Of a DNA stretch of 46,522 bases, positions 1 to 45,878 are shown piece after piece. The stretch's first letter is position 1, and every line of letters starts with the position of its first letter. Below the pieces are notes generated by a model, which saw only the letters and a list, made by a program, of their open reading frames with translations, did no database searches and was not told the origin of the DNA. The DNA is from Synergistaceae bacterium (GTDB lineage Bacteria > Synergistota > Synergistia > Synergistales > Aminobacteriaceae): NCBI GenBank assembly GCA_031272035.1, contig JAISUO010000048.1:1-46522 (forward strand), written 5' to 3'. Position numbers and translations under genes: made by a program.

Positions 1-104
1 GCCTTGGAGTGAAGTACCTGCCGGCGAAGGAATGGGGAGAGTTTATGGTGGAGGCCGACACGCAGCTGGGCGCGGTCATGAAGGAAGCCGGAATCGCCAA
101 GTAG
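1..104 (+). CDS. C-terminal end of a TctC-like (Bug family) solute-binding protein, cut by the window edge
   Basis: Codons in phase from base 3 to the TAG at 102-104 give 33 residues ending in EAGIAK. A Trp-x-x-Phe segment is followed by an amphipathic helix and a short Ala-Gly-Ile-Ala-Lys end. This is how tripartite tricarboxylate transporter binding proteins (TctC/Bug) usually finish, so that is the suggested family. Such proteins sit in the periplasm and deliver carboxylates to TctAB permeases. Too little is present to be certain, and the start lies outside the window. A good terminator follows about 20 bases after the stop, so this is the last gene of its unit. Confidence 0.55.
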   Translation, partial: LGVKYLPAKEWGEFMVEADTQLGAVMKEAGIAK

Positions 105-125
105 AAAATAATTCAGCGAGTATTG

Positions 126-158
126 AGCCGCCCCCGGGTTTACGCCGGAGGCGGCTTT
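126..158 (+). terminator. Rho-independent terminator after the TctC-like gene
   Basis: AGCCGCC at 126-132 pairs with GGCGGCT at 150-156, extended inward by CCGG pairing, and a short T-rich tract follows. It lies 22 bases after the TAG stop of the plus-strand gene. Confidence 0.8.
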
Positions 159-218
159 AATTTATCGGTTTATTTACTTTCAAACAGAGCAATAATCTCA
201 TTCGCCATTATGTTGTTA

Positions 219-319
219 ATACCAATTTGCTTTCAACCGAGCGTTAATGAAGAAGCTAATGTTTGAATATCACTGCTTTTAGCTATTCTAACTTTAGGCC
301 TTTTATTTCAAATTGGTAT
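219..319. repeat. Short element bounded by 11-bp inverted repeats (MITE-like)
   Basis: ATACCAATTTG at 220-230 (preceded by A) is mirrored by CAAATTGGTAT at 309-319, enclosing about 100 AT-rich bases without a convincing gene. The left arm is part of an 18-base string (216-233) that recurs in inverted orientation at 23477-23494. No target-site duplication is obvious. The whole stretch 105-522 holds only the terminator, this element and the antitoxin remnant listed next. Confidence 0.4.
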
Positions 320-490
320 AAAATCATACGGAACCTGAAATCCCTTGAGTTCATCTTTAAGAAAGCCTGTTCGAGCCGCCGGTTTCTTCGAATATTCGGA
401 GGCAATCGCCTGGACAATCACCTGGGGTTTGCCATGGCTGGTTATAATAAAAGGAAATCCCGCTTTTTGATTTCTTTCAGGAACGATTGT
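308..490 (-). pseudogene. Remnant of a Phd/YefM-type antitoxin gene lacking its N-terminus
   Basis: On the minus strand, 60 sense codons run from just after a TAA (491-493) to a TGA at 308-310. The product contains PFIITSHGKPQVIVQ followed later by GFLKDELKGFQVPYDF. The first string matches the family pattern of a beta strand, His/Asn-Gly-Lys-Pro and a hydrophobic strand; the second matches the C-terminal Gly-Phe-Leu-Lys ... Val-Pro-Asp-Asp-Phe toxin-binding tail. An in-frame stop sits where the first 15-20 residues of the DNA-binding N-terminus should be, and I found no start codon or restoring frame upstream. No toxin gene is recognisable next to it. The 3' end touches the right arm of the inverted-repeat element, suggesting decay linked to that insertion. 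Confidence 0.65.
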
Positions 491-522
491 TTAAGTGAGT
501 ATCAGTGAGACTCGGCGTTTTG

Positions 523-1335
523 TCATCTTATGTCCCGGTCCATCTCCAGGGTGGAGGAGGACCAGGCGAACAGCACCCAGAAAATCCCCGCGTCCAGAAG
601 AAAGTTCAGGAGACCGCTGCCGTAGTCGTTGCCTCCATTGAGCCACTTCAGCAGAAAGACGCAGATCATCGCGCTGAACAGGGCATACATCCAAAAAAAG
701 GCTTTCCCCGGTTTTCTGCGGGCGTTCATCATCATAAAACGCAATATAAAAAAGACAATCCACAGGCCAAGCGTCAGTAGTCCCGAGGTAAACCCGAACT
801 GACTGATGACCCTGAACGGCGAAGGCACCCGGGCGGCCGAGGCCAGAAACATTTCACTTATGGTAGAAAACACGGCGATGGCAAGACAACACAGAAAGAC
901 CGTCCCGATCAGTTTTTCCCGCAGGAGATAGTCTTTCATCGTATAGCTCTCGGCCTTTTGCTTCTGCGCCTCGCGGATTCTACGGAAAAGCTCCTGAGGA
1001 TCCATGGGCTCCGCTGCCTTCTTCGGCGGCTGAGGGGGCGGCGGCGTCTGCTTCTCATGGGAAACGCTCTGGGGCTCCGAGTGAACGGAAGCGTCATAAA
1101 TGGGTGAATTCGCCGCGAAACCATGAGTGTGGTCGTAATCAAACCGCTTCGCCGGCGTGCTCAGTACGTCATAAGCCTCCAGCACAGATCTGTATTGCTC
1201 TTCAAAACCCTCTCCCGGGTGAAGGTCAGGGTGATACTGTTTAATGATTTTTCTGAAATGATTTTTCAGATCTCTGGGCGAAATCCTGGGGTCTACACCC
1301 AAAATTTCGTAATAACTTTTTTTCTCACCTGCCAT
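523..1335 (-). CDS. Membrane-anchored J-domain (DnaJ-like) protein
   Basis: A 270-residue protein. Residues 7-70 form a J-domain, with the HPD motif at 35-37 that stimulates the ATPase of DnaK-type Hsp70 partners, ending in a typical ...RFDYD segment. A charged linker rich in Pro and Gln follows (about 85-130). Then come four predicted membrane helices from about residue 140 to 260. No Gly/Phe-rich region, zinc fingers or DnaJ C-terminal domains are present, so it is a type III J-protein that would recruit Hsp70 to the inner face of the membrane. The ATG at 1335 is preceded by GGAGGG at good spacing. No partner gene lies beside it and the client is unknown. Confidence 0.85.
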   Translation of the reverse strand: MAGEKKSYYEILGVDPRISPRDLKNHFRKIIKQYHPDLHPGEGFEEQYRSVLEAYDVLSTPAKRFDYDHTHGFAANSPIYDASVHSEPQSVSHEKQTPPPPQPPKKAAEPMDPQELFRRIREAQKQKAESYTMKDYLLREKLIGTVFLCCLAIAVFSTISEMFLASAARVPSPFRVISQFGFTSGLLTLGLWIVFFILRFMMMNARRKPGKAFFWMYALFSAMICVFLLKWLNGGNDYGSGLLNFLLDAGIFWVLFAWSSSTLEMDRDIR

Positions 1336-1753
1336 ATCTCTTTCCCTCCACCCGACACCAACCTGCCTGACTGTGGGGTCATTTTATCAGATGATCCCAC
1401 CCCCGCAAGCCACCATGTCGCAAATTCACCTCTCAAAATCGCTCTCATGCCCAAATAATCTTCCGCGACATACAGGCTGTTTCTCCAACTCTCCGTAAAC
1501 GTGAACCTGCCAGCTTCCAATTTCCGAATATATTGACAGAGATATAAATAATGTTAATTTCCAAACATGGCTATTGAGTTTTTTCAGCAAGCTTTGGCCC
1601 CACGAGTTGGGGATAAGTTACTGTTACAGCAGAGGTCAGCCCTCCAATAATTTAGTGAAAGCTGTTTTCCAAAGTTCAGAACATATCCATCATACATAAT
1701 AGTCATGATCTGTATTAGTATACTATACGTACGTATTTTTTCGGAAACATCAC
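1336..1753. other. Intergenic stretch with no supported gene
   Basis: These 418 bases hold the J-protein leader at the left. A CCCCA/TGGGG hairpin lies near 1598-1612. The right end (1690-1740) is AT-rich and contains TATACTATACGTACGTA. A 75-codon frame at 1293-1520 overlaps the J-protein start and has no ribosome site or family resemblance. Confidence 0.5.
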
Positions 1754-2857
1754 TCACCTTCTCAGGAAAGGCCGAACGCAGACGGGTGTGGGAATATGCG
1801 TTTCGAAGACCTCATCCAGGCTGCCCCATTGGGAATCTATTCTGAAAACCACGAGATTATTCGTGTCCTGGTTGGCCACCAGAAGATAGCTGCCCTCCGC
1901 AGTGATGGCAAAGCTCCTTGGGGTTTTCCCCCGACTGGAGACGTTTTCTCTGAGAGACAGGAACCCTTCGGAGGTGATTTCCAGGATGGACAGGGTATCG
2001 AGTCCCCGCACGGACGCATAGAGATATTTCCCGTTCGGTAAAATACCGATGTCCGCTCCAATGCTTCCGCTCCGGTCCACGCCGTCGGGCACCAGAGAGA
2101 CCGTCTGACGATGGATGAGAAAACCCTTTCCGTCGTACTCGAAAGCGCTCACCGAGAGTTCCAGCTCGTTGATCACGTAACAATACCGTCCGGATGGGTG
2201 AAATACGCAATGCCGCGGCCCGGCTCCGGCCGTTACGGACACGGGAGGCGGCCCCTTTTTCAGGCCTGCGCCCGAAAAATCCGTTTCATAGACCACGATT
2301 TTATCGATGCCCAGATCCGGAACAAAAGCGTATTTTTCCTCCCGGTCGAAAACCGCGGAATGGGCATGGGGACCCTGCTGCCGCAATGGATGAAGGCTTT
2401 TTCCCTCGTGCTGGGCGAAAAAAACGCGCTCCCCCAGGCTTCCGTCTTTTTCGACGGGGAAAACGCAGACGCTGCCGCTCATGAAATTCGAAACGGCCAC
2501 ATGAGTATTTTTCGTGTTGACGCTGATGTAACAGGGATCGGTTCCCCCTGTGGCGCGGCTGTTCAAAAAACGGAGCTGCCCGCCCTCTTCCACGGCAAAA
2601 GCGCTGGCCGCTCCCGAGGCAAGGCCTTCATATTCTTTCAGTTCGTTTACGCAATACAAAAAACTTCCGCAGGACGAAAGAGTGAGATAAGATGGATTGG
2701 GCACGTTCTCCGTCACAAACAGATACGTCAGCTCCCCTGTTTCAGAATCCATTTTATAGCAATAGATACCCTCGCCTTTTCCCACCAGAACGTTTCCCGT
2801 TCCGAAAAGAACCGGCTGAGTGTATGTGCCGACGTAAACAAACACCTCTTCCCTCAT
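1754..2857 (-). CDS. Lactonase-type seven-bladed beta-propeller (6-phosphogluconolactonase-like, YbhE family)
   Basis: A 367-residue cytoplasmic protein beginning with YVGTYT, the usual opening of this family. Repeated blade motifs include NPSYLTLS, DPCYISV, GPRHCVFHPSGRY and TPRSFAIT, with the family signature QQGPHAHSAVFD near residue 165. Lactonase-family propellers hydrolyse sugar lactones such as 6-phosphogluconolactone in the oxidative pentose phosphate route. No glucose-6-phosphate dehydrogenase is nearby, so the true substrate is open. The length is normal for the family. ATG at 2857 has a GGGGG-rich ribosome site. A terminator at 3001-3048 separates it from the TRAP genes upstream, so it probably has its own promoter. 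Confidence 0.85.
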   Translation of the reverse strand: MREEVFVYVGTYTQPVLFGTGNVLVGKGEGIYCYKMDSETGELTYLFVTENVPNPSYLTLSSCGSFLYCVNELKEYEGLASGAASAFAVEEGGQLRFLNSRATGGTDPCYISVNTKNTHVAVSNFMSGSVCVFPVEKDGSLGERVFFAQHEGKSLHPLRQQGPHAHSAVFDREEKYAFVPDLGIDKIVVYETDFSGAGLKKGPPPVSVTAGAGPRHCVFHPSGRYCYVINELELSVSAFEYDGKGFLIHRQTVSLVPDGVDRSGSIGADIGILPNGKYLYASVRGLDTLSILEITSEGFLSLRENVSSRGKTPRSFAITAEGSYLLVANQDTNNLVVFRIDSQWGSLDEVFETHIPTPVCVRPFLRR

Positions 2858-3000
2858 GAAACAACCCCCGCTCTGCCGCTTTCGAACTGCGCTCTTTTTC
2901 AGCTATATTTTTTTATTATAACGTATGAATTAAATATTCTTTGACCATGCGACAAAAATGCGACAAAAAACAATGCAAACCATGAAATGAAAAAACAATG

Positions 3001-3048
3001 AAAAAAGCGATCTCCCCGTCGAAATTTCTTTCGAAACGAGGAGATCGC
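3001..3048 (-). terminator. Rho-independent terminator of the TRAP operon
   Basis: GCGATCTCC (3007-3015) pairs with GGAGATCGC (3040-3048). Read on the minus strand, the hairpin is followed at once by TTTTTT. It lies about 48 bases after the stop of the fused TRAP permease gene. Confidence 0.85.
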
Positions 3049-3095
3049 GTTCGATGCCGCCAAAACAAAAATTTACGAAAAAAACGTCAATAACT

Positions 3096-5153
3096 CTATT
3101 TTGCGGCAGCAGATCGGCTCTTTTCTCTTTTTGCCAGATACCGCTGGATGAGGAAGAGCGCGACGAAAATCGCGAGGCCGATGAGGTCTGTGCTCATTCC
3201 GCTGTCGATGAGGCACAGGGCTCCTCCAAAGACGACAATTCGCAGAAGCGGGTTTATCGTCGTAAAGAGATACCCCTCCACCGCCGCGGCGATCATGAAC
3301 ACGCCGATGCAGGCTCCCGCCGCCACCCTCAAACCACCCAAAAGCGACGTATTGATCAGCAGCAGCTCCGGACAGTAAATAAACATATAGGGGACGATAA
3401 AACCGCCTATCGCCAGTTTCACCGAGGCGACACCCGTTTTCATGGGATCTCCCCCCGACAGGCCCGCCGCCGCAAAAGCCGCCAGCGCCACAGGCGGCGT
3501 CAGATTCGCGAACATGGCGAAGTAGAAGGAGAACATGTGCGCCGAAATGGGCGGAATCCCCAGTTTCGCCAGCGCCGGAGCCGCGATGGTCGCCGTGATG
3601 ATGTAGGCCGGGATGGAGGGAACCCCCATACCCAGAATCATGCAGGTGATCATCGTGAAAATCAGCGTGAGAATCAGGCTCTGACTGCCCAAAGTGATGA
3701 TCGTGTTGGCCATGGTGAGGCCAAATCCCGTTTTGGAGGTGACGCCGATGATGATTCCCACGCAGGCGCAGGCCATCGCCACCGGAACCGTGGCCCTGGC
3801 GCCCTCCGCGAAGGAGTCGCATATGTCCCTGAAGCTCATTCGCGTGGCTTTTCTGATGCAGGCGATAACCACTGTGGCCGCAATGGTTATGACGGCTGAA
3901 AACACCACCGTCGTCCCGGAAAAGAGAAGCAGATAGAGAAGAAGCACGATGGGAACCAGCAGATGGCCCTTGTCCCTGAGAACGGCGCCGATGCGGGGCA
4001 GTTGCTCCCGGGGCAGACCGTGAAGGTCGTTTTTACAGGCTCGCAGATGGACCTGGATGATGATGCCCAGATAGTAGATCAGCGCAGGGATGGCCGCGTG
4101 CACGATGATCACCGAGTAGGGAACGCTGAGAATTTCGGCCATGATGAAAGCCGCCGCTCCCATGACGGGGGGCAGCAGCTGACCGCCCACCGAGGCCGAG
4201 GCCTCCACCGCGCCGGCAAACTCTTTGCTGTACCCCATTTTTTTCATCAAAGGAATGGTGAAAGCTCCCGTCGTAACCACGTTGGCCACGGCCGAGCCGT
4301 TGATGGACCCCAAAAAGCCGGAAGCCACCACGGACACCTTGGCCGGTCCGCCCTTGGTGTGACCCGCCAGAGCCATGGCAACGTCGTTGAAAAACGCCCC
4401 CATCCCCGACTTTCCCATCACCGCTCCGAACAGGATGAACAGATAGATATAGCTGGCCGCCACGCTCACCGATGAACCGTAAATCCCCTCCGTGTTGGCG
4501 AAGAACTGATTGGAGAGCTGAAGCCAGGAGTATCCCCGATGCCCGAACAGGCCGGGAAGGCTGATGTGCCACAGTCCGCGGGGACCGCAAAGCCCGTAGG
4601 CTATGAAGACGATGCTCAGGATGGGCAGGGCCCAGCCGGTCATGCGCCGGGAGCCTTCCAGCACCAGCAGAACCAGCAGCGTGGCCACGATGAGATCGGG
4701 AGTGTTCGGGTTTCCCGCCCGGCTGATGATGCCGAGGTAATCCACCCATACATACAGGGGCACCGCCGCCGACAGAAGAATCAGAATCCAGTCGAACCAT
4801 GTCACTTTTTTCCCGCTTTTGCCGCTGAAGGGATACATGATGAACCCCAAAATCAGCATCATGCCCACGTGCAGCGAACGATGCTTGAGCACCACCGGCG
4901 TTCCCAGGAAGGAGGTGATGAAATGGTACAGGGTGACCGCGATGCAGGCCACGTAGAAAAGCTTCGCGACGAAAGCGCTGTCCAAAGAACGCGTCGCGGA
5001 TTCCTTGTCGAGTTTTTCGATGAGCTCCCGCTGCTGCTTCGTCAGTTTGCCTTCCATGGCTCTGGCAATGGCTTCCTTCGAAACCTCGTCCTCCAGGGGT
5101 TGGGACGCTGCCTCCTTTCCCTGAGAATTTTCATGCTTGTCGTCAAAATCCAT
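3096..5153 (-). CDS. TRAP transporter permease, fused small and large subunits (4TM/12TM type)
   Basis: About 685 residues. A charged cytoplasmic N-terminus of about 55 residues is followed by four helices (roughly 60-185) corresponding to the DctQ part. The rest is a DctM-type domain with many helices and motifs such as GSINGSAVANVVTTGAFTIP, SVGGQLLPPVMGAAAF and GMGVPSIPAYI. TRAP permeases import organic acids using a sodium gradient and normally need a periplasmic receptor (TAXI family for this fused type); none is encoded here. A GTG at 5165 could start the frame, but AGAGG lies directly against it and is better placed for the ATG at 5153. It is the last gene of the dctQ-dctM-dctQM unit. 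Confidence 0.9.
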   Translation of the reverse strand: MDFDDKHENSQGKEAASQPLEDEVSKEAIARAMEGKLTKQQRELIEKLDKESATRSLDSAFVAKLFYVACIAVTLYHFITSFLGTPVVLKHRSLHVGMMLILGFIMYPFSGKSGKKVTWFDWILILLSAAVPLYVWVDYLGIISRAGNPNTPDLIVATLLVLLVLEGSRRMTGWALPILSIVFIAYGLCGPRGLWHISLPGLFGHRGYSWLQLSNQFFANTEGIYGSSVSVAASYIYLFILFGAVMGKSGMGAFFNDVAMALAGHTKGGPAKVSVVASGFLGSINGSAVANVVTTGAFTIPLMKKMGYSKEFAGAVEASASVGGQLLPPVMGAAAFIMAEILSVPYSVIIVHAAIPALIYYLGIIIQVHLRACKNDLHGLPREQLPRIGAVLRDKGHLLVPIVLLLYLLLFSGTTVVFSAVITIAATVVIACIRKATRMSFRDICDSFAEGARATVPVAMACACVGIIIGVTSKTGFGLTMANTIITLGSQSLILTLIFTMITCMILGMGVPSIPAYIITATIAAPALAKLGIPPISAHMFSFYFAMFANLTPPVALAAFAAAGLSGGDPMKTGVASVKLAIGGFIVPYMFIYCPELLLINTSLLGGLRVAAGACIGVFMIAAAVEGYLFTTINPLLRIVVFGGALCLIDSGMSTDLIGLAIFVALFLIQRYLAKREKSRSAAAK

Positions 5154-30809: not shown

Positions 30810-32657
30810 TCACGCGGAAGAATCCGCGGTTTCCGCAAGAACCGGCTCCTGTGCCTGCTTCGAACGGTTTCCTCCACTTTTCTTGGCCTCGATCATGGCA
30901 TCGTAGGCCAGGGCCACCAGGGTCGGGACGTCCATGCCCTTCCGAAGCTCCGCCACGCCCGCGCTCACCGTCAGGTGGGTTTCATCGCCCAGGGTCTGAT
31001 GATCGATCATGTCGCGAACCTGCTCCGCAAACTGGATGCCCGCGCTCACCGGCAGGGGGATCAGAACCATGAACTCGTCCCCTCCCCAGCGCCCCAGAAA
31101 ATCGGTGGAACGGACGCGGCTCCGGAATACGTTCACCAGCTCTTTGAGCACCCGATCGCAGGCGGCGTACCCGATGCGTTCGTTGAGCTCCCGAAAACCG
31201 TCTATATCGAACACGATCATCGACAGCGAGCCCCGGTAGCGCAGGGCGCGCTCGACCTCCGTTTCGAGGACCCGCTCCATGCCCGCCCTGTTCAGAGCTC
31301 CCGTGCAGCTGTCCGTGGTGGACATGCGCTTCAGTTGTTCCTCGGTGCGGTGCAATCGCGTGTTGTCGAGACAGTGAACCAGAGTGGCGCTTTTTTCTCC
31401 CCACTGGACGGAAACTCCCTCCAGGGTCAGCCAGAGGCTCTCGCCCTCCTGGGTGCAAAACTGACAGTCCATAGCCTCATTCCATCCATGACGGATCCTG
31501 TGGAGGATTTTTTCCCGCAACGCCTCGTCGGAAGCGCTGTTTCCCCCGCCAAGCTCCCAGAAGGCACGGCCGGCCGCCTTTTCTCCTCTCAGGCCCAAAA
31601 CCCGAAAGAAGGGCTCGCTGGCTTCGAGGCAAATCCCGTTTTCGTCCAGAACAACGCACATCCCCGGCAGGGCGTTCAGCAGCTCGGTCTGCAGGGCAAG
31701 TTTCGAAAACCGGGGCTCTTCCACCTCGTCCTTCGCCTCCTCCGGCTCGGGTTCGGGGGGCGTTTCAGGGGAAGCCGCGAGGCTTTTCGGATGAGTGGTC
31801 AGATAAACCACAGCTCCGGCGATACTGCCCGTGGATGCCACAAGAGGAGCCACCGTCACATCCCACTGGTTGCTGCCGCTTTCCTCGCCCTTTTCCATGA
31901 GAGAGGTCATTCCCGTCTTTCCCTCGCAGGCTTCGAAAATCAGCTCGTGCAGCTCCATATCGAAGGCCGTATCCAGCGAGGCCGGATAAACGAGGCCGCA
32001 GACACATTCATGTCCCAGAAAACGACCCGCCACCTCCCGATAGCCTCGCGTAGCGTACAACAGAACTCCTTCCCGATCCACGGCAAAACACAGGAGTCCC
32101 GGGCAGCTGCTCAGGAGCGGAAGGGCCCAGGCGGGGCCATAATCGGAGGGAGGCGGAGTTTCCGCCTGACCTCGAACCAGTTCCGTCACATCGAAGGCAA
32201 TGCACTGAACCGCCGGGCTTCCCTGCCACATCACTCCGGCAAACTCCATGTCCAGCCACCCCAGAGCTCCATCCGCGCGCACCACCGGCAGGGTGACGCG
32301 GGTGGACTTTCGAAGCGCGTCCTTCAGGACAAACTCCACTTCTCCCGTATAGCCGGGGCCGGAGAGGGACTGCAGGGTAACCTCCACGCCGAATTTGAGA
32401 TGAAATCCCAGAAATTCTTCCGCCCGGTGGTTCATCATGCGCAGCACTCCCGAGGGAGAAAGAAGCATGTACAGAAAAACGGCGCTGTCCATAAGGGTGA
32501 GATAGCGCTGCTCCGTCTCATACAAAACCTTCTCCGTACGCCGCACCTTCATCAGTTCCCGTTCCAGCGCAACGACACGCATCACCAACGGGTCTTTTCC
32601 CGCTTCGGAATCAGCAAACTCTTCCTCTTCCAGCAGATCCCGTGCAGACATGGACAT
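30810..32657 (-). CDS. Multi-PAS diguanylate cyclase (GGDEF)
   Basis: 615 residues, no membrane helix. A short helical N-terminus leads to a first PAS domain (about 45-160), a second PAS-like domain (about 180-290) and a third (about 325-440, beginning LLNALPGMCVVLDENG). An intact GGDEF domain follows at about 455-600, with GGDEF at 525-529. The active-site motif is perfect, so synthesis of cyclic di-GMP is expected. An RxxD inhibitory site (RSTD) sits five residues before the RW-GGDEF strand, implying product inhibition. A negatively charged linker rich in Pro/Glu separates PAS 2 and 3. ATG at 32657 follows GGAAGG. Confidence 0.92.
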   Translation of the reverse strand: MSMSARDLLEEEEFADSEAGKDPLVMRVVALERELMKVRRTEKVLYETEQRYLTLMDSAVFLYMLLSPSGVLRMMNHRAEEFLGFHLKFGVEVTLQSLSGPGYTGEVEFVLKDALRKSTRVTLPVVRADGALGWLDMEFAGVMWQGSPAVQCIAFDVTELVRGQAETPPPSDYGPAWALPLLSSCPGLLCFAVDREGVLLYATRGYREVAGRFLGHECVCGLVYPASLDTAFDMELHELIFEACEGKTGMTSLMEKGEESGSNQWDVTVAPLVASTGSIAGAVVYLTTHPKSLAASPETPPEPEPEEAKDEVEEPRFSKLALQTELLNALPGMCVVLDENGICLEASEPFFRVLGLRGEKAAGRAFWELGGGNSASDEALREKILHRIRHGWNEAMDCQFCTQEGESLWLTLEGVSVQWGEKSATLVHCLDNTRLHRTEEQLKRMSTTDSCTGALNRAGMERVLETEVERALRYRGSLSMIVFDIDGFRELNERIGYAACDRVLKELVNVFRSRVRSTDFLGRWGGDEFMVLIPLPVSAGIQFAEQVRDMIDHQTLGDETHLTVSAGVAELRKGMDVPTLVALAYDAMIEAKKSGGNRSKQAQEPVLAETADSSA

Positions 32658-37240: not shown

Positions 37241-38132
37241 GGAGAGCCAGCCTCCTCAAAAGGTCGAGCTTGTGAGGGCGGTCCGACACCGGAAGAATGG
37301 TCCGGCCCCGCCAGCACAGGCCCACGGCGAGCCCCGACTTCATGGATTCCATGATGGTCCAGGCCGCCATGGAAAGACCGCGTTCCGCCTCGCCGGCCAG
37401 CAGCCGGTCCAGATCGATGATCCGTCCGCTCCGGGCGGAGGAGCCGTCGTAAAGGCGGGTTTTCAGCTTTCCCGTCCGGGCGGAGGACTTCCAGTGAATG
37501 CGCTTCATGGAGTCTCCTTCCACGTAGGGACGCACCCCCACCACGTCCGTCTCTCCCACGGGCACGCTTTCATCGCGTCCGTCGGACTCCGGCTCCCGGA
37601 CAAAAACGGACTCGGCCTCGCAGCGCAGGGGGCAGGGAAAAACCGTCACCTCGTCCCTGCAGTCGGTCGTCCACCAGCGCACGAAAAAGTTGAACGGGTA
37701 GACAGAGGAGAGCCGCACGCACTCGTCGTCGATCTCGAAGCGCCCCCGGGCGGGAAAGGTGACGAAAAGCGTCCGGCTTTCGACCGTTCCCGCCGGCACC
37801 GACCCGAAGAAAACGTTTTTTCCATAAAGGGAAACTTCAATGAGAAAAAGAGAGACGAATCGATTGTCGTTGCGCACGTGAACGGATACGGGACAGGGAA
37901 CCTGCGCGTAAATTTCGTCCGGAAACGTGAAGGAGACCTTCGCGCTGCGAATGTTGCGCCTTCCCGCAATTCCCGACCCCAACATGTACCCCAGCAGGAC
38001 GGTGGTGGCGAGATAGAGGAGGTTGTTCGTGCTGTTCACCGCGATTACGCCGAGAACGATCGAGATCGCGATGTAGATCGACCCCGAGCGGCGCACCCGT
38101 ATGACGTCCTTCCAGGTTCGGTTCTCGCTCAT
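37230..38132 (-). CDS. DUF58 membrane protein (MoxR-associated)
   Basis: 300 residues. Two N-terminal helices (about 15-55) are followed by a soluble beta-rich part. The DUF58 signature VRPYVEGDSMKRIHWKSSARTGKLKTRLYD lies near 205-235. After the signature the von Willebrand-like part is short. These proteins form a functional set with MoxR ATPases and transglutaminases, and are thought to help fold or assemble membrane or envelope complexes. The ATG overlaps the moxR stop by four bases. Confidence 0.9.
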   Translation of the reverse strand: MSENRTWKDVIRVRRSGSIYIAISIVLGVIAVNSTNNLLYLATTVLLGYMLGSGIAGRRNIRSAKVSFTFPDEIYAQVPCPVSVHVRNDNRFVSLFLIEVSLYGKNVFFGSVPAGTVESRTLFVTFPARGRFEIDDECVRLSSVYPFNFFVRWWTTDCRDEVTVFPCPLRCEAESVFVREPESDGRDESVPVGETDVVGVRPYVEGDSMKRIHWKSSARTGKLKTRLYDGSSARSGRIIDLDRLLAGEAERGLSMAAWTIMESMKSGLAVGLCWRGRTILPVSDRPHKLDLLRRLALHAV

Positions 38133-39100
38133 GCGATGGTCGGCACCTCCTGAAAAATTCCCCGCAGAATCTCTTTTTTGACGGCCTCCGACCCCTGACG
38201 CAGCTGAATGCGATGGAGCAGAACATCCTCCGCCATGACCTGAATGTCCTCCGGAAGCACGTATTTACGGGTCTGCATCCAGGCCGCCGTTTTCGCCAGA
38301 GAAAGCAGGGACATGGCCCCACGGGTCGAAATGCCCGCGACGATATTGGGATGATCCCGGGTCTTCGCGGTCACCTCCAGCAGGTAGTCCAGAATTTTGT
38401 CGGAAACCGTGATTTCCAGCTCGATCATTTTCTGTATTTGCAGAATTTCCTCCGGGCTGAACAGGGCGGGAAGCGTCTCCAGCTCGTTTTTCCGGCTGCC
38501 GACCCGCAGAATTTCACGCTCGGCGTCCCTGGACGGGTAGCCGATGGAAACCTTCATCATGAAGCGGTCCATCTGAGACTCCGGCAGGGGAAAGGTCCCG
38601 GAATGCTCCACGGGATTCTGGGTGGCGACGACGAAAAAAGGCCGGGGCAGCCGGTAAGTGACGCCGTCCACGGTGGACTGTTCCTCACCCATCGCCTCCA
38701 GCAGGGCGCTCTGGGTTTTGGGCGTGGCACGGTTGATCTCGTCCACCAGCACCAGGTTGTTGAATATCGGCCCCGGGTGAAACTCGAAAACGCCCTTTTC
38801 CGCCTTGAAGATATTCAGGCCCGTGACGTCCGTGGGCAGAAGGTCGTTCGTGCACTGGATGCGCCCGAAATTCAGGCCCAGCAAACGCGCCACGGCGATG
38901 GCCAGCGTGGTTTTGCCAAGGCCGGGCAGGTCCTCCAGCAGGAGGTGCCCGTTCGAAAAAAGACACGCCAAAACCTTGATCAGAGCTTCGTCCTTGCCAT
39001 TCAAAACCAGCGCCAGGCGGTCGATGGCCGACTGAACCCGAGGATTGGAGACTCTGAACGTGAACCCGGAAGAACCGGACACGGAGTTGAAGACATTCAT
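38129..39100 (-). CDS. MoxR-family AAA+ ATPase
   Basis: 323 residues with Walker A LEDLPGLGKTTLA, Walker B LVLVDEINRATPKTQSALLEAM, sensor 1 VVATQNPVEHSGTFPLPESQMDRF and the arginine-containing sensor 2 region near SLLSLAKTAAWMQ. This is a complete MoxR ATPase, a chaperone-like motor that acts on partner proteins of the DUF58 type. It heads the moxR-DUF58-transglutaminase operon. GGAGG lies 15 bases before the ATG at 39100, rather far; no better start is visible. Confidence 0.93.
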   Translation of the reverse strand: MNVFNSVSGSSGFTFRVSNPRVQSAIDRLALVLNGKDEALIKVLACLFSNGHLLLEDLPGLGKTTLAIAVARLLGLNFGRIQCTNDLLPTDVTGLNIFKAEKGVFEFHPGPIFNNLVLVDEINRATPKTQSALLEAMGEEQSTVDGVTYRLPRPFFVVATQNPVEHSGTFPLPESQMDRFMMKVSIGYPSRDAEREILRVGSRKNELETLPALFSPEEILQIQKMIELEITVSDKILDYLLEVTAKTRDHPNIVAGISTRGAMSLLSLAKTAAWMQTRKYVLPEDIQVMAEDVLLHRIQLRQGSEAVKKEILRGIFQEVPTIA

Positions 39101-39431
39101 CGGCTGTTCTCGAAACCTCCAGAAATTCAGAATTGAAATCTTTTCCTTCGTCCAGGGCTCAAACCCGCTCAGTGTTCAAACCTGTCCCGAAAGAACTCCG
39201 CAAATATACTATAAATTAAGGAAATTTACGATAGAAACGGCTACAACGATATTACGCAGTCCAACTCCGGTCTTTTTGCGAATGCGTCTGAAGCCGGGAC
39301 GCATGTTATACTTTAAAACGATAAAAAAACGATAAAAAAGGTGGAAAAATTGTTCATCTGCGCACGCGGACACGTAAAGAAGCACGTAAAAAAGCAATAT
39401 GCGGAGACAGACTCCTGAAAGTGGGATTCCC
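39101..39431. other. Divergent promoter region between moxR and the response-regulator gene
   Basis: 331 bases with no gene. It holds the leaders of the two divergent units. On the plus strand an extended -10 lies at 39306-39314, preceded by an inverted repeat GCGTC/GACGC (39283-39301). Confidence 0.5.
39283..39314 (+). promoter_or_regulatory. Extended -10 promoter with adjoining inverted repeat, for the receiver-domain gene
   Basis: TG-T-TATACT at 39306-39314 fits the extended -10 pattern. GCGTC and GACGC arms (nine bases apart) end five bases upstream and could be an operator. No clear -35. Confidence 0.4.
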
Positions 39432-40745
39432 ATGTTTGATCTGTTTTTTGGAAAATATCTGCTGGAAAAAAAATTTATCACGCTCCCCCGTCTCAGAAGT
39501 ATGCTGGAGCGTCTGAAAAAAGTGCGCGTCCGTCTGGGAGTCCTCGCCATCCACGCGGGGCTGCTGACCGGAGAGCAGGTCGACAATCTGGCCCAAATGC
39601 AGCGCAGGGAGGACATTTCTTTCGGAAGGCTGGCCGTTCGGGAGGGGCTGCTGACCAGCGATCAGGTGTTCCTCCTTCTGGAAGAACAAAGCAGAGCCCG
39701 TTTTTCCCTGGGACAGCTTCTGGTGGACGACGGAATTTTCACCTACGAAGAGCTGGAAAAAATTTTCAACGACTACAAACAGACCTCGGAGCTGACCTCT
39801 TTCGAGCTCGACGCTCTGCACCGCAACGATATGGCCGGCGTGCTGGGCTCCTTTTTTCACTCGTCGGAGGACGACACAAACCGGTATGGCGCCTGCGCGA
39901 GTTTTTTTCTGAAGAACGTCATCCGCTTCATCTCGGACGACGTGCAGTTCGAACGCATGCAGTCCGCGACCTCTTTCACCTGCCGAAACTTTATCTGGCA
40001 GCAGCTCACGGAAAACGACTTTTCCTCCGGCATTTCCCAAAATACGGAAAACGGCTTCATCTGCGGGCTGGAAGGCGAAGCGTCGAGTCTGTTGGCGTTC
40101 TCCCGTCTTTTCATGCCCGTGATGTCCGTGGGGCTGGACGAAGTGGCCCGGGACGCCCTGAGCGAATTTCTGAACCTCCAGAACGGGCTCTATCTCTCCT
40201 GGCTTTCCGAAAAAGGCATGGAAATGCGGCCTTCGCCGGTGGAATTCCGAAAAGACGTCGAAGTGACAGGCTCTTCCGTTCTATGGGTTCCCTTTTCCAT
40301 CGCCTTCGGAAAGTACAATATCGTGATGGCCGTCAGACCCGAATTCAAAAACACCGTCGTGCCAAAGGGAAACCGGAGAGAGCGTATTCTCGTCACAGAC
40401 GATTCCGCCATCTCCCGAATCATGCTGGAGGACATTCTGACCCGAGGCGGGTATGAAATCGCGGGAGAAGCCGCAGACGGGGAGACGGCGATCCAAAAAT
40501 ATCAGGAGATTCAGCCGGACCTGGTGACGCTGGATATTACCATGCCCAAAAAGAGCGGTCTCGACGCCCTGCAGTCCATTCTTCAGATGGATCCGGACGC
40601 AAGAATCGTCATGATTACGGCTCTGGCCCAAAATTCATCCATTTTGCAGGCCCTCAGACAGGGGGCCATGAACTACATCCTTAAACCTTTCGACGAGGAA
40701 ACCGTCCTCTCCGTTATCGACGACGCCCTGACCCACAGAATATGA
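39432..40745 (+). CDS. Response regulator with MshEN-like, CheX-like and receiver domains
   Basis: About 437 residues from the ATG at 39432; an earlier ATG at 39399 lacks a good site. Residues 1-117 hold three units of LG-x-L-x2-x-GLLT-x2-QV-x-L, the MshEN/GspE N-domain pattern that in other proteins can bind c-di-GMP. Residues about 130-305 look CheX/CheC-like, with the phosphatase motif D241-x3-E245-x2-N248. Residues 317-437 are a receiver domain with D323-D324, phosphorylation site D368, T396 and K418. A receiver joined to its own CheX-type phosphatase centre suggests self-limiting signalling. It is the only complete plus-strand gene and stands alone. The MshEN call is from pattern only. 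Confidence 0.78.
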   Translation: MFDLFFGKYLLEKKFITLPRLRSMLERLKKVRVRLGVLAIHAGLLTGEQVDNLAQMQRREDISFGRLAVREGLLTSDQVFLLLEEQSRARFSLGQLLVDDGIFTYEELEKIFNDYKQTSELTSFELDALHRNDMAGVLGSFFHSSEDDTNRYGACASFFLKNVIRFISDDVQFERMQSATSFTCRNFIWQQLTENDFSSGISQNTENGFICGLEGEASSLLAFSRLFMPVMSVGLDEVARDALSEFLNLQNGLYLSWLSEKGMEMRPSPVEFRKDVEVTGSSVLWVPFSIAFGKYNIVMAVRPEFKNTVVPKGNRRERILVTDDSAISRIMLEDILTRGGYEIAGEAADGETAIQKYQEIQPDLVTLDITMPKKSGLDALQSILQMDPDARIVMITALAQNSSILQALRQGAMNYILKPFDEETVLSVIDDALTHRI

Positions 40746-40828: not shown

Positions 40829-42250
40829 TTATGGTCTGCGCTGAGTGCTGACGTTCTCGAAGGGCCTTTGTCCGGGAGCGTCGTTGCGGGGAGCGCGGTT
40901 CGGAGCAGGTCCCCGGTCTCCCGAACCGCCCCGACGAAGGGCCCCGCCATTCGGCCTTTGTGAGGTCGAAGGCCTTTCCGGGGTCGAAGGCCGACGGGAC
41001 TCGGAAGGACGTCTCACTTCCGGACGGTTTTGCTGAGGCTGAGGCGAACGCTGAACGCTGGGGGGACGCCGGTCTTCATTGCCGGGGCGACGATTTTCCC
41101 GCTGAATCCGCGGGGGTTGGCGCTGTTCTCCCCGACGCTCCTCCGGCGGGCGCTGCGCGCTGGAAGGACGCCGGTCTTCATTGCCGGGGCGACCTTCTCT
41201 CCCTTCTCTCCGCCGGAACTGCGGAGAGCGATGGTCGCCGTTTCCGGGCCTGTCTCCAAAGCGCGGGCGGGCATCCCGAAAACGGGGCTCCTTCGGCCTC
41301 AGCCTCATCCGGGGAACCGGCAGAGGATCACGCTCCGTCCACCGGCGCTGGCCTGGAAACGGTCGCCCCAGGCTGCGGCTGTCATGCCTGGGATCGTAAT
41401 GCTGACGGGTGTAGCGCATGGAGTTCTGCCACATCAGGGGGTGCAGGCGACCCGCGCCGGACGTTTCGTAACGATAGCCCGGGACGGGAAAGGCGCGGCG
41501 GGAGCGAGACCCCAGAGGCCGCCAGTAAGACCCGAAGAAACGATAATAGTAAGCGGGGCGGTAGACGAGAGCGCTGTGCCAGTACCAGTCCTGCCCGGGG
41601 ACATAGTAGTAGTACCGATGGTGGACGACGTCGTCGATGACCCCGATGAGGCTGGCCGTAGCGTAGATCAGATCGGCCACGTCGGCAATGTCGTCGGCGG
41701 GGCTTCGTTTCACCACAACGGTAGTTGAGGTTTCGGCCCTTCCGCCCCTGCCTGCGGGGTTTGAGCTCAGAGCCAGAGCTTCGGACCAGAAGTAGAGACT
41801 CCCCTGCCGCCAGGGCGTTCGAAGGTCGTCGCACAGAAGCCCCAGGGTCTGTGCGTTGTCCTGCAGCAGACTGTAGGTTTCGTTTTTCAGCCCTGTGGTT
41901 CTGTAGCCCACGTACCAGCCGCGTTCATTGCCCTTCAGCGCGTAGAGGGACGAGGCGTCCGGCGGAAGCGATTCCGGATCGAAATAATCCAGAATCGAGG
42001 CAAGAGGGGGAACCGAACTGTCGTTCGCGTCGCTGTAATACGTCTGAGCGGCGGTCTTGAGCGCGGAGAGATCTCCCATGACCCACTGAATTTCCTCTTT
42101 TTCATCGAGCCTTGTCGCGGCCGCGAAGGCCCTCTCCTCCATCACCGCCGTCAGCAGCAAAGATGAAAGAGCCGCCAAAAAACATGCCCGGCATTTCCCC
42201 GATTTCCACATTTTCCATGTTGCCCATGATTTCCATGTTTTCCTCTGCAT
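40829..42250 (-). CDS. Secreted protein with an Arg/Pro-rich repetitive C-terminus
   Basis: About 473 residues from the ATG at 42250, which AAAGGAGG precedes by nine bases. A signal peptide ends near AFAA (about residue 45). Residues 50-200 form an ordered domain of unknown family. A Tyr-rich stretch follows (HHRYYYYVPGQDWYW, RPAYYYRFFGSYWRP). The last 180 residues are low-complexity Arg/Pro/Glu/Gln with repeats of RRPGNEDRRP. The tail would be highly charged and disordered outside the cytoplasm, perhaps binding cell wall or nucleic acid; that is a guess. It converges with the response-regulator gene. Confidence 0.7.
   Translation of the reverse strand: MQRKTWKSWATWKMWKSGKCRACFLAALSSLLLTAVMEERAFAAATRLDEKEEIQWVMGDLSALKTAAQTYYSDANDSSVPPLASILDYFDPESLPPDASSLYALKGNERGWYVGYRTTGLKNETYSLLQDNAQTLGLLCDDLRTPWRQGSLYFWSEALALSSNPAGRGGRAETSTTVVVKRSPADDIADVADLIYATASLIGVIDDVVHHRYYYYVPGQDWYWHSALVYRPAYYYRFFGSYWRPLGSRSRRAFPVPGYRYETSGAGRLHPLMWQNSMRYTRQHYDPRHDSRSLGRPFPGQRRWTERDPLPVPRMRLRPKEPRFRDARPRFGDRPGNGDHRSPQFRRREGREGRPGNEDRRPSSAQRPPEERRGEQRQPPRIQRENRRPGNEDRRPPSVQRSPQPQQNRPEVRRPSESRRPSTPERPSTSQRPNGGALRRGGSGDRGPAPNRAPRNDAPGQRPFENVSTQRRP
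41064..41091. repeat. First copy of a perfect 28-bp direct repeat
   Basis: Identical to 41166-41193. The copies lie 102 bases apart, 34 codons, so both are read in the same frame and encode the same Arg-Pro-Gly-Asn-Glu-Asp-Arg-Arg peptide. Confidence 0.9.
41166..41193. repeat. Second copy of the 28-bp direct repeat
   Basis: Identical to 41064-41091 and in the same reading frame. Imperfect similarity extends beyond both ends of the perfect block, so a longer unit has been duplicated and has since diverged. Confidence 0.9.
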
Positions 42251-42614
42251 TGCATTCTGCCTCCTTTGGAGAGAGATTCTTCGGACTCCCGATTGTCTCG
42301 TCTCTATTTTACCCAGACCTTCCATACAAACCAAATCAAATCAAACAATACAATCCAAACAATACAAAGTCTCAATTTCTTATTTCTATTCTTTATTTCT
42401 ATTCTTGTTTCAAGAGGCATGATACGAAAACCTTATGGGAAAGATATGGACGCAATATGAAAATAATATGAAAAACAAAAACTGCCGGATATATTCAATC
42501 CGACAGCTCTGCACAGCGCGTTTTTTGAACACGAAGAAGATAAAAAGAAGATAAAAATATGTCCTGAACACATGATTCCAGTTTGAAATCAAAGGTCCGG
42601 CACGGTCGGCCGCA
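42251..42614. other. AT-rich intergenic region
   Basis: 364 bases with markedly lower GC than the surroundings, especially 42310-42480. It contains the leader of the Arg/Pro-rich gene, tandem ATCAAA/ACAATAC-like short repeats near 42325-42365, and the terminator of the exporter gene. No gene is supported; the 60-64 codon frames here lack ribosome sites. Confidence 0.5.
42470..42506 (-). terminator. Rho-independent terminator after the DMT exporter gene
   Basis: CTGCCGGAT (42482-42490) pairs with ATCCGACAG (42498-42506) with one mismatch; on the minus strand TTTTTGTTTTT follows. Confidence 0.8.
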
Positions 42615-43703: not shown

Positions 43704-45878
43704 TCAATCGGCGCTGCTCAATGCCGTCTGGGTGCTCAATCCCCTGACGGATGATGGATTTCTTCGGGGCACTCTCACTTCGTCGTCGGCGTCACGGAGT
43801 CTGAAGCGGGACAGGGCCTTCGCCAGAGTCTGAGTATGTCCGCTCATGATCTCGGATTGATCCGCGATGGCCTGGGCGGTTTTTGCCGTTCCATCCGCCG
43901 CTTTCTGGATTTCCGACAGGGTTTCCGCCATTTCCACCGTGGACCTGGTGGCCTTGTCGATGGCCGTCGCCACTTCCTTGCTGGACGCGGCCTGCTCCTG
44001 GGCCACCGCGGCGATGCTCTGGATGGAGTCGTTGGCCTTGTTGATTTCTTTCAGAGCTCCGTCAAGTTCCTTCTGGGCCTCCGCCGCCTGGTTGAGGGTT
44101 TCACCCAGGGTGCGCCCGGCCTCGGCAGTGGAGGCGATGCTCTCCTGAGCCTGCTTTTGAAGCTCGACGATGATGCCGTTCACGCTCTGGGCTGCTTTCG
44201 CAGATTCTTCAGCTAATTTACGCACTTCTTCCGCCACCACGGCGAAGCCGCGCCCCACCTCTCCGGCCCGGGCCGCCTCGATGGCCGCGTTCAGGGCAAG
44301 GAGGTTCGTCTGGTCCGCGATGCCCGTGATGACCGACACGAAGCTGCTGACGTTCTCCACGGAGTTGACCAGCTGTCGGGTCTTTTCCTCGGCGGTTCTG
44401 GCGTTCTCGTTCACGCCCTTCATTCCCTCAATTACGGCGTTCACGGTATGAATGGCTCTGCTGGAGGCCTCCGTGGTCTGAGCGATGAAGGCCGCGCTGT
44501 CCGTGGAGGACTGGGCCACGGTGTCCGCTCCGGCGCTCATTTCCTCAACGCCGGCGTTGCTTTCCTCCAGCGCCGCTCCGTTGTTCTCGCTCAGGTCGGA
44601 AACGTGGTCGAACTGTTTTTTGACTTCCTTCATGGCCTCGTTGGTTTCCTCGGCTATTCCGGACAGCGTGACCGCCACGCCCTCCAGATCCGTGGAGGCG
44701 CTTACCACGTTCCGCATGGCGTATTCCTGGGCGATCACCATCTCGGACAGGGCGTCCGCCAGTTTTCCCAGTTCGTCTCTGCCCTCGTAGTTGAAGTCCT
44801 TCCGCTGGATGGTCAGATCGCCCTCCTGACAGCGACGGGCCAGTCCCACGATGGTGTTGAGGGGTTTGGAGATGGAGCCGGCGATGAACAGGGCGGTCAA
44901 AATTCCAAGAATGATGGAAACCGCCGCGGACGACAGCAACACCATTGTCACCACGCGCACCAGGTCCATGTTATCCTGATTGACCGATTTGACGATGTCC
45001 TGGGCGGTCTGGGAGAGTTTCACGGTCGCGTCCTTGTAGGAGGCTATCGTAAGTTCCCGGGCCCTCTCCAGTTCGCTCACTTCGCCCACCGCGCGTCCTA
45101 TTATCGCGATGTTGGTCTTGTACAGCTCAAGGCCCTCGATCACTTTATCCATCAAAGCCCTGCGGGTCGCGTCTCTCGTGGAGTCTTTCAACGTCCGGGC
45201 CGGTTGTTTGAGGGTGTCGCAGACGGCCCCGAGCTTCAGCACCGCCGCCGCGTCGCGAGCGGAGTCCGAGGCTAAGACGAGCTTCGTCCGGATGTCGGAA
45301 AATCCGCCCATCAGCTTGCCCAGCAGGTAAAACTGTTCCACGCGCTCATTTTTGTTTCTGTCGTCGTCCGCGGCGTGAGATACTTCATAAAAACTGTCCT
45401 GAGCCGTCTGGATGCTGGCGGCCACCTCGGCCCCCGTCCTGAGCAGCTCGGCTCGGGCCTCCGCTTTTCTCATGAGGGCCTCGTGGGTTTTGATCATTTG
45501 GTCCAGGTAGGTTTTATGAATGGGAAGCAGGGTCTCCCGCACCAGTTTCGGGGTCTTCAGATTGGGGAAAGAGGCTCCCATGGCATCCATGGCGGCCAGT
45601 GTCTTTTCAAGCTCGGCGACCTTCGCCTTGTCTTCTTCGATGCCCTGGAGGGCTTCTTTATAAGCCGTTCCTCTGACGCTCAGAAAAAGCTCATACACAC
45701 TGCGCTCGATGTCGATGTCCACTTTCAGCGTCGGCAGGATCTGCTCCATCACAAAAGCGGACTCCCTGTCGAGTTTCGCCAGGTTCCGCCACGTGATGCC
45801 GATGCCCGCGGCGAACACCAGAAGAACCACACCAAATCCCACCAACAACTTCGAAGTCATCTTCAGATGCTTCAACAT
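43704..45878 (-). CDS. Methyl-accepting chemotaxis protein
   Basis: 724 residues. Helix 1 (about 10-32) and helix 2 (about 313-340) enclose a mostly helical extracytoplasmic sensor of about 280 residues, of the four-helix-bundle type. A HAMP segment (about 340-395) follows, then a long cytoplasmic coiled coil. The conserved signalling tip is present: [36 protein letters not shown], which binds CheW and CheA. There is no C-terminal pentapeptide for CheR/CheB docking. The ligand is unknown. The ATG at 45878 follows GGGAGAG. Confidence 0.94.

Follow-up and report, generated by a model that had tools for sequence, protein, structure and literature searches.

A receiver protein with an N-terminal repeat block and a CheX-like domain

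The window, the whole stretch of DNA analysed here, is 46,522 nucleotides long and comes from a Synergistaceae bacterium. The frame at 39432-40745(+) encodes a protein of 437 amino acids, which comprises four MshEN_N-like repeats, a CheX-like domain and a receiver; all features described below are on the + strand unless otherwise stated. An alternative start at 39399 would add 11 residues, and the N-terminus common to the 17 members of the family described below begins at 39432. Both flanking genes are on the opposite strand, so that the gene stands alone. The neighbor on one side encodes a MoxR-type ATPase (38129-39100, other strand). The neighbor on the other side, 40829-42334(-), is a frame of 501 residues with an Arg/Pro-rich C-terminus; it gave no match in a Pfam search at E 0.001 and may be either a gene with poor conservation or a wrong gene call.

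When the window protein alone was searched against Pfam, only the receiver scored above the cut-off (PF00072, E 2.6e-25, residues 319-429, 40386..40718). Besides this match, the characteristic D/D, D, T/S and K residues were all found. The phospho-acceptor D368 (40533..40535), K418 and a threonine or serine at position 396 were present in all 18 receivers compared, which included the fused ones and those of the two-gene modules described below. The DD pair was seen in 17 of the 18 rows of this comparison, and the remaining row also has DD on its sequence. The first-pass annotation had described a complete receiver with D368 in the same chain as the other domains, and this was borne out. The positions it gave for D241, E245, N248 and D368 were exact, and its GLLT-x-x-QV units are GLLTGEQV at 43 and GLLTSDQV at 72.

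Distribution of the family

Residues 1-314, the core, were searched against 185 genomes of the window's phylum. A full-length profile match (E 8.6e-101 or better) was found in 17 genomes, including the window's, with a clear gap below: the next matches were partial (4.1e-12 and weaker), and those inspected were PilB-type, CheA-type or CheX-type proteins. The fused receiver was present in two of the 17 genomes, those of the window's species and a congener (G002). The chains of the other 15 stop after the CheX part. A third genome of the genus (G001), which is 88 percent complete, had no core match.

Searches beyond the phylum consisted of plasmid records, a contig scan with the single protein and a viral scan with the core profile. 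The plasmid search detected a fused member on a plasmid of [Eubacterium] eligens ATCC 27750 (NC_012780.1), and again in another record of this species, matching 86 percent of the query with 26.9 percent identity (E 1e-23). This protein (WP_012740644.1, 435 residues) carries only the annotation 'response regulator'. In Pfam it has a C-terminal receiver (E 3.5e-31), preceded by weak CheC (E 0.0011) and CheX (E 0.0013) matches, both below the curated cut-offs. Equivalents of E245, N248, D241, G36, Q57, G65 and Q86 are all retained in it. The contig scan with the whole protein gave three loci matching in the receiver only, and the viral-contig scan with the core profile gave no match. A literature search with E. 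eligens tags found no paper that contained them.

N-terminal repeats

The N-terminal part contains four helical repeats in an exact 29-residue register: A (residues 5-28, 39444..39515), B (34-57, 39531..39602), C (63-86, 39618..39689) and D (92-115, 39705..39776). Repeat A is the most divergent helix-turn-helix, with model helices at 4-12 and 18-30. In repeat D, the last unit, Y115 replaces the glutamine of the motif.

The profile made from the 17 members matched Thermus PilF (6f8l, E 4.8e-13) and the c-di-GMP complex of Vibrio cholerae MshE (5htl, E 8.8e-7). With the half-profile, residues 29-88 aligned without gaps with MshE 4-63, spanning repeat B (aligned with MshE 9-32) and repeat C (aligned with MshE 38-61). 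A model of residues 1-118 from one sequence (pLDDT 79.4) had eight helices, and its best superposition was on 5htl (Z 10.9, 59 residues, 1.9 A). A Z score under about 13 can reflect a mere common arrangement in helical repeats, and the case for MshEN_N is therefore carried by the sequence profile. The C-termini of fumarase and aspartase, which are unrelated helical proteins, gave Z scores of around 8 (up to 8.1), and the best Foldseek E-value of the model was 0.32.

The relaxed MshEN motif with which PMC5013675 searched was matched at 11/11, 10/11 and 10/11 positions in the units at 34, 63 and 92, respectively, so that it is complete only in the first. When the first 314 residues were shuffled 5000 times, three such windows (10/11 or better) at a spacing of 29 never occurred, while any single one occurred in 124 of the shuffles. 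The strict tandem motif, RLGxx(L/V/I)2xxG(L/V/I)2xxxxLxxxLxxQ given twice with a 5-residue spacer, is absent from the window protein: the arginine at 63 is lost, and the leucines at 50, 54, 64 and 79 are replaced by V, A, F and V.

The c-di-GMP contact positions of MshE were taken from PMC5013675. Glycine and glutamine make polar contacts to the ligand there, and the equivalents of G11, Q32, G40 and Q61 (G36, Q57, G65 and Q86) were invariant in all 17 members, as was F64, which stands for L39. At other hydrophobic contacts the family has L, I or V for L10; L, V or M for L54; L or I for L58; and V for L25 in 16 of 17 members. For R38, arginine was kept in 15 of 17, with S63 in the window protein. 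The remaining two were poorly kept. The R9 equivalent (position 34) is R or K in just four of the 17, and the L29 equivalent is A54 in the window protein and A, V, H, N, S or G in the family, mostly H or N elsewhere. In MshE, changes of the hydrophobic contacts, L29 among them, reduced affinity more than tenfold, while changes of R9 or Q32 had effects of fivefold or less (PMC5013675). This weighs on both sides of the question of binding: L29 is itself hydrophobic, and the invariant glutamines count for less. The residue evidence is thus mixed, and binding of c-di-GMP by repeats B and C is plausible as a reasonable guess.

Profile searches with PF05157 had been suggested as a check of these repeats. 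None of the 17 members matched PF05157, with E values up to 10 considered, but this result is misleading. In two PilB controls the PF05157 match begins only after the binding motif (94-170 and 65-150), so the model covers MshEN_C, which the family lacks. We therefore rejected PF05157 as a test for MshEN_N. The window's own genome encodes, on contig C61 (L147:1459-4344(+)), a PilB-type ATPase of 962 residues in which PF05157 matches two MshEN stretches. The assignment of the N-terminal units to the MshEN type itself was upheld by the family profile and, with the caution given above, by the model.

CheX-like domain

The CheX-like phosphatase domain occupies residues 184-301 approximately (39981..40334). 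In PDB searches, the family profile matched 3iic (E 1.2e-4), 3hzh (Borrelia CheX in complex with CheY3; E 2e-4) and 1squ (E 0.0041). The alignment of 14 family members, with three near-copies left out, was compared by hhalign with that of 13 CheX proteins of the phylum and gave a probability of 95.4 (E 1.8e-8) over 107 columns. Pfam CheX (PF13690) matched 15 of the 17 members at E up to 10, with a best value of 2.9e-7, but the window protein alone matched neither CheX nor MshEN in Pfam at E up to 10. Profile support for both N-terminal domains, whose lack was to have counted against the first-pass annotation, was therefore found with the family profile and not with the single protein.

The motif D241-x3-E245-x2-N248 had been taken as that of CheC/CheX phosphatases. 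By itself, a D-x3-E-x2-N match proves little, as shuffling the first 314 residues 5000 times produced one in 295 cases, and it was rejected as proof. Two of its three residues were supported by the family. E245 (40164..40166) and N248 (40173..40175) are conserved in 17 of 17 members, the former aligned with the glutamate of CheX in 3hzh and 1squ and the latter with the asparagine of CheX. They are the predicted catalytic acid and amide of the ExxN pair, and E and N are the two residues that CheX requires (PMC3510030). D241 (40152..40154) fared otherwise: this position is D in just three members, A in 11, E in two and S in one. Catalysis is supported by the invariance of the E245/N248 pair, which holds although the CheX half has only 16-28 percent identity to the window protein outside the genus (12 rows).

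Two-gene form and origin of the fusion

In all 15 unfused members of the phylum, a receiver gene lies immediately upstream of the repeat-CheX gene on the same strand. The receiver gene ends just inside the repeat-CheX gene, with an overlap of one base in 12 of the 15 and of eight bases in the other three; these lengths depend on the start chosen at the conserved N-terminus of the repeat-CheX gene. We compared the window with the loci of 16 relatives (4 to 15 kb each, four of them shorter than 8 kb). Only the receiver and repeat-CheX genes had homologues in all the other loci at the threshold used. This tight upstream pairing, together with the fused form in the window's genus, is our strongest evidence, and gives good support, for the view that receiver and phosphatase probably act together.

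In all 14 genomes for which both were among the matches listed, another stand-alone CheY-type receiver scored closer to the fused receiver than the module receiver did. In a tree of 44 receivers, the module receivers form one clade (100/99), but neither a grouping of the fused receivers with CheY nor one with the module receivers was rejected (p-AU 0.30 and 0.59). The same held when the fused receivers were restricted to the two from the window's genus (p-AU 0.32 and 0.22). We therefore claim neither fusion of the upstream partner nor its replacement. In the core tree, which has long branches, a single branch with a support of 84/89 separates the fused from the split forms.

Genomic context

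The first-pass annotation had proposed that the protein ties a nearby diguanylate cyclase to a nearby chemotaxis receptor. The context does not bear out this proposal. The cyclase gene (PAS-PAS-GGDEF, 30810-32657(-)) lies around 7 kb from the 437-aa gene and the MCP gene (43704-45878(-)) around 3 kb from it; both are on the opposite strand, and further genes intervene. An operon with either was rejected on position. Among the 16 loci from relatives, each of 4 to 15 kb, none had a homologue of the window's GGDEF domain and one had homologues of its MCP, at E 1e-5. This locus, L047 of genome G010, has two MCP homologues (96-4119(-)) within around 7 kb, just before the receiver/repeat-CheX pair; histidine kinase and response regulator genes were also seen there by eye.

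GGDEF genes were present in all 17 genomes with the core and in 155 of the 168 without it. FliM was found in 16 of the 17 and in 108 of the 168 (Fisher p 0.013, confounded by kinship). Their presence in the core genomes speaks for the reading proposed below, and the frequency of GGDEF elsewhere and the confounding of FliM speak against it. Pfam CheX had matches in 133 of the 185 genomes of the phylum. In the window's genome the sole such match was a stand-alone CheX on another contig (L148), not the 437-aa protein.

Other CheX and MshEN combinations in the phylum

CheX was also found behind an N-terminal hemerythrin in three frames, L143:960-1958(+), L144:875-1855(+) and L145:1252-2127(-) of genomes G005, G019 and G153, with E values of 1.6e-12 to 3.7e-13 for Pfam Hemerythrin and 1e-9 to 3e-11 for CheX. 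These were all three that were checked of at least seven CheX frames of around 290-365 amino acids among the matches listed. They possibly encode oxygen-sensing phosphatases. Together with the repeat-CheX family, they suggest that CheX is joined to different sensor domains in this phylum.

Three loci, L037:1015-2955(+), L034 and L146 (genomes G119 and G121), encode CheA with a pair of MshEN_N-like repeats between the HPt and dimerisation domains. In G119 this CheA clusters with two CheX matches, and CheW-like and MCP-like genes were seen there by eye.

Proposed function and alternatives

Our preferred reading, held with slightly less than even confidence, is a receiver with a built-in phosphatase and a ligand-gated repeat block. 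A kinase, probably CheA, would phosphorylate D368. The CheX-like domain would then bring E245 and N248 up to the phospho-aspartate of the receiver to which it is joined and hydrolyse the phosphate, acting either within one chain or across the two chains of a dimer, and the protein would serve as a self-resetting timer or a phosphate sink. Dephosphorylation of its own receiver is plausible. Around 17 residues lie between the aligned CheX part and the receiver, so that reaching the attached receiver may require a dimer. A full-length single-sequence model was too poor for judging the geometry (pLDDT 37.8) and was discarded. Less certainly, c-di-GMP bound by repeats B and C might raise or lower the phosphatase activity. 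That c-di-GMP directly sets the lifetime of the phosphorylated receiver, which would make the protein a c-di-GMP-gated aspartyl-phosphate phosphatase, is a possibility that we regard as doubtful. With similar reserve, such a putative gated phosphatase could occur as two overlapping genes across several families within one phylum and, where fused, as one chain that resets itself, with a Lachnospiraceae plasmid as a further site of the fused form.

The roles of the two domains could also be the reverse. The receiver might be the input and the CheX part the output, as in CheB, so that the phosphatase is turned on or off when D368 is phosphorylated and the substrate is free flagellar CheY, giving feedback on chemotaxis. 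In favor of this, the window's genome has a separate CheY just behind the fliM and fliN/Y genes and three CheW-domain proteins, one of them a CheA-like frame by eye; CheY is the known substrate of CheX (PMC10782961). But a dedicated adjoining receiver, found in all 15 unfused members, would be needless if the target were free CheY, and the same genome also has an ordinary stand-alone CheX. We consider this arrangement rather unlikely. It is improbable that the CheX-like domain is inactive and only binds or sequesters the receiver: the low similarity to CheX and the replacement of D241 in 14 of 17 members would fit, yet E245 and N248 did not vary among sequences that have diverged so far.

A serious possibility concerns the repeats, which might be a docking or localisation module that does not bind c-di-GMP. 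Only the phosphatase-receiver pair would then be active, which is compatible with the main phosphatase reading. The departures at positions 54, 34 and 63 point this way, as does the resemblance of the helix-pair arrangement to the fumarase and aspartase C-termini, and one published homologue of MshEN, XpsE, has lost the ability to bind (PMC5013675). On the other hand, the four Gly/Gln contact equivalents are invariant in the 17 members and kept in the E. eligens protein, and perfect conservation of the motif may be unnecessary for binding (PMC5013675).

If a self-dephosphorylating receiver gated by c-di-GMP is indeed encoded here, the second messenger would target the step at which a receiver loses its phosphate rather than the kinase or the motor, and a single small protein would suffice for the study of such control. 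With both fused and split forms at hand, the pairing of the phosphatase with the receiver can be tested in vitro. The form in E. eligens, labelled merely 'response regulator', indicates that such proteins can hide in annotation.

Comparison with known systems

CheB and other receiver-enzyme proteins have a receiver and an enzyme in one chain, as here, but the enzyme of CheB is not known to act on the phosphate of its receiver, unlike what we propose. The repeats resemble the MshEN_N receptor of Vibrio cholerae MshE (5htl) and Thermus PilF in the 24-residue motif, the 5-residue spacer, the helix pairs and the invariant Gly/Gln contacts. They differ in having four units instead of two, no MshEN_C (PF05157) and no ATPase, and in the poor conservation of the R9 and L29 contacts. 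The CheX-like domain shares the ExxN pair with Borrelia CheX (CheX-CheY3, 3hzh) and Thermotoga CheX (1squ) and aligns over around 107 columns with the CheX proteins of the phylum, but it is joined to repeats and a receiver, has very low identity and has mostly lost the D four residues before E. In the CheA-CheC/CheX fusions of Leptospirae (PMC10782961), a CheX-type phosphatase is likewise fused into a signalling protein; there, the partner is a kinase, whereas here it is a receiver.

In our literature search for CheX with a receiver, fusion or c-di-GMP, no repeat-CheX-receiver protein was found, supplements aside, and the only paper found with both CheX and MshEN was Wang et al. 2016 (PMC5013675). 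This paper names, in one sentence, MshEN with REC and with CheX, and it also reports MshEN with CheA; the MshEN-CheX and MshEN-REC pairings are the same as ours. The text consulted describes neither a repeat-CheX-receiver chain nor an overlapping two-gene form, and its Table 4 supplement may list the chain. The MshEN-CheX and MshEN-REC pairings are thus already known, and what is new is the overlapping receiver gene, present in 15 of 15 unfused members, and the fused chains.
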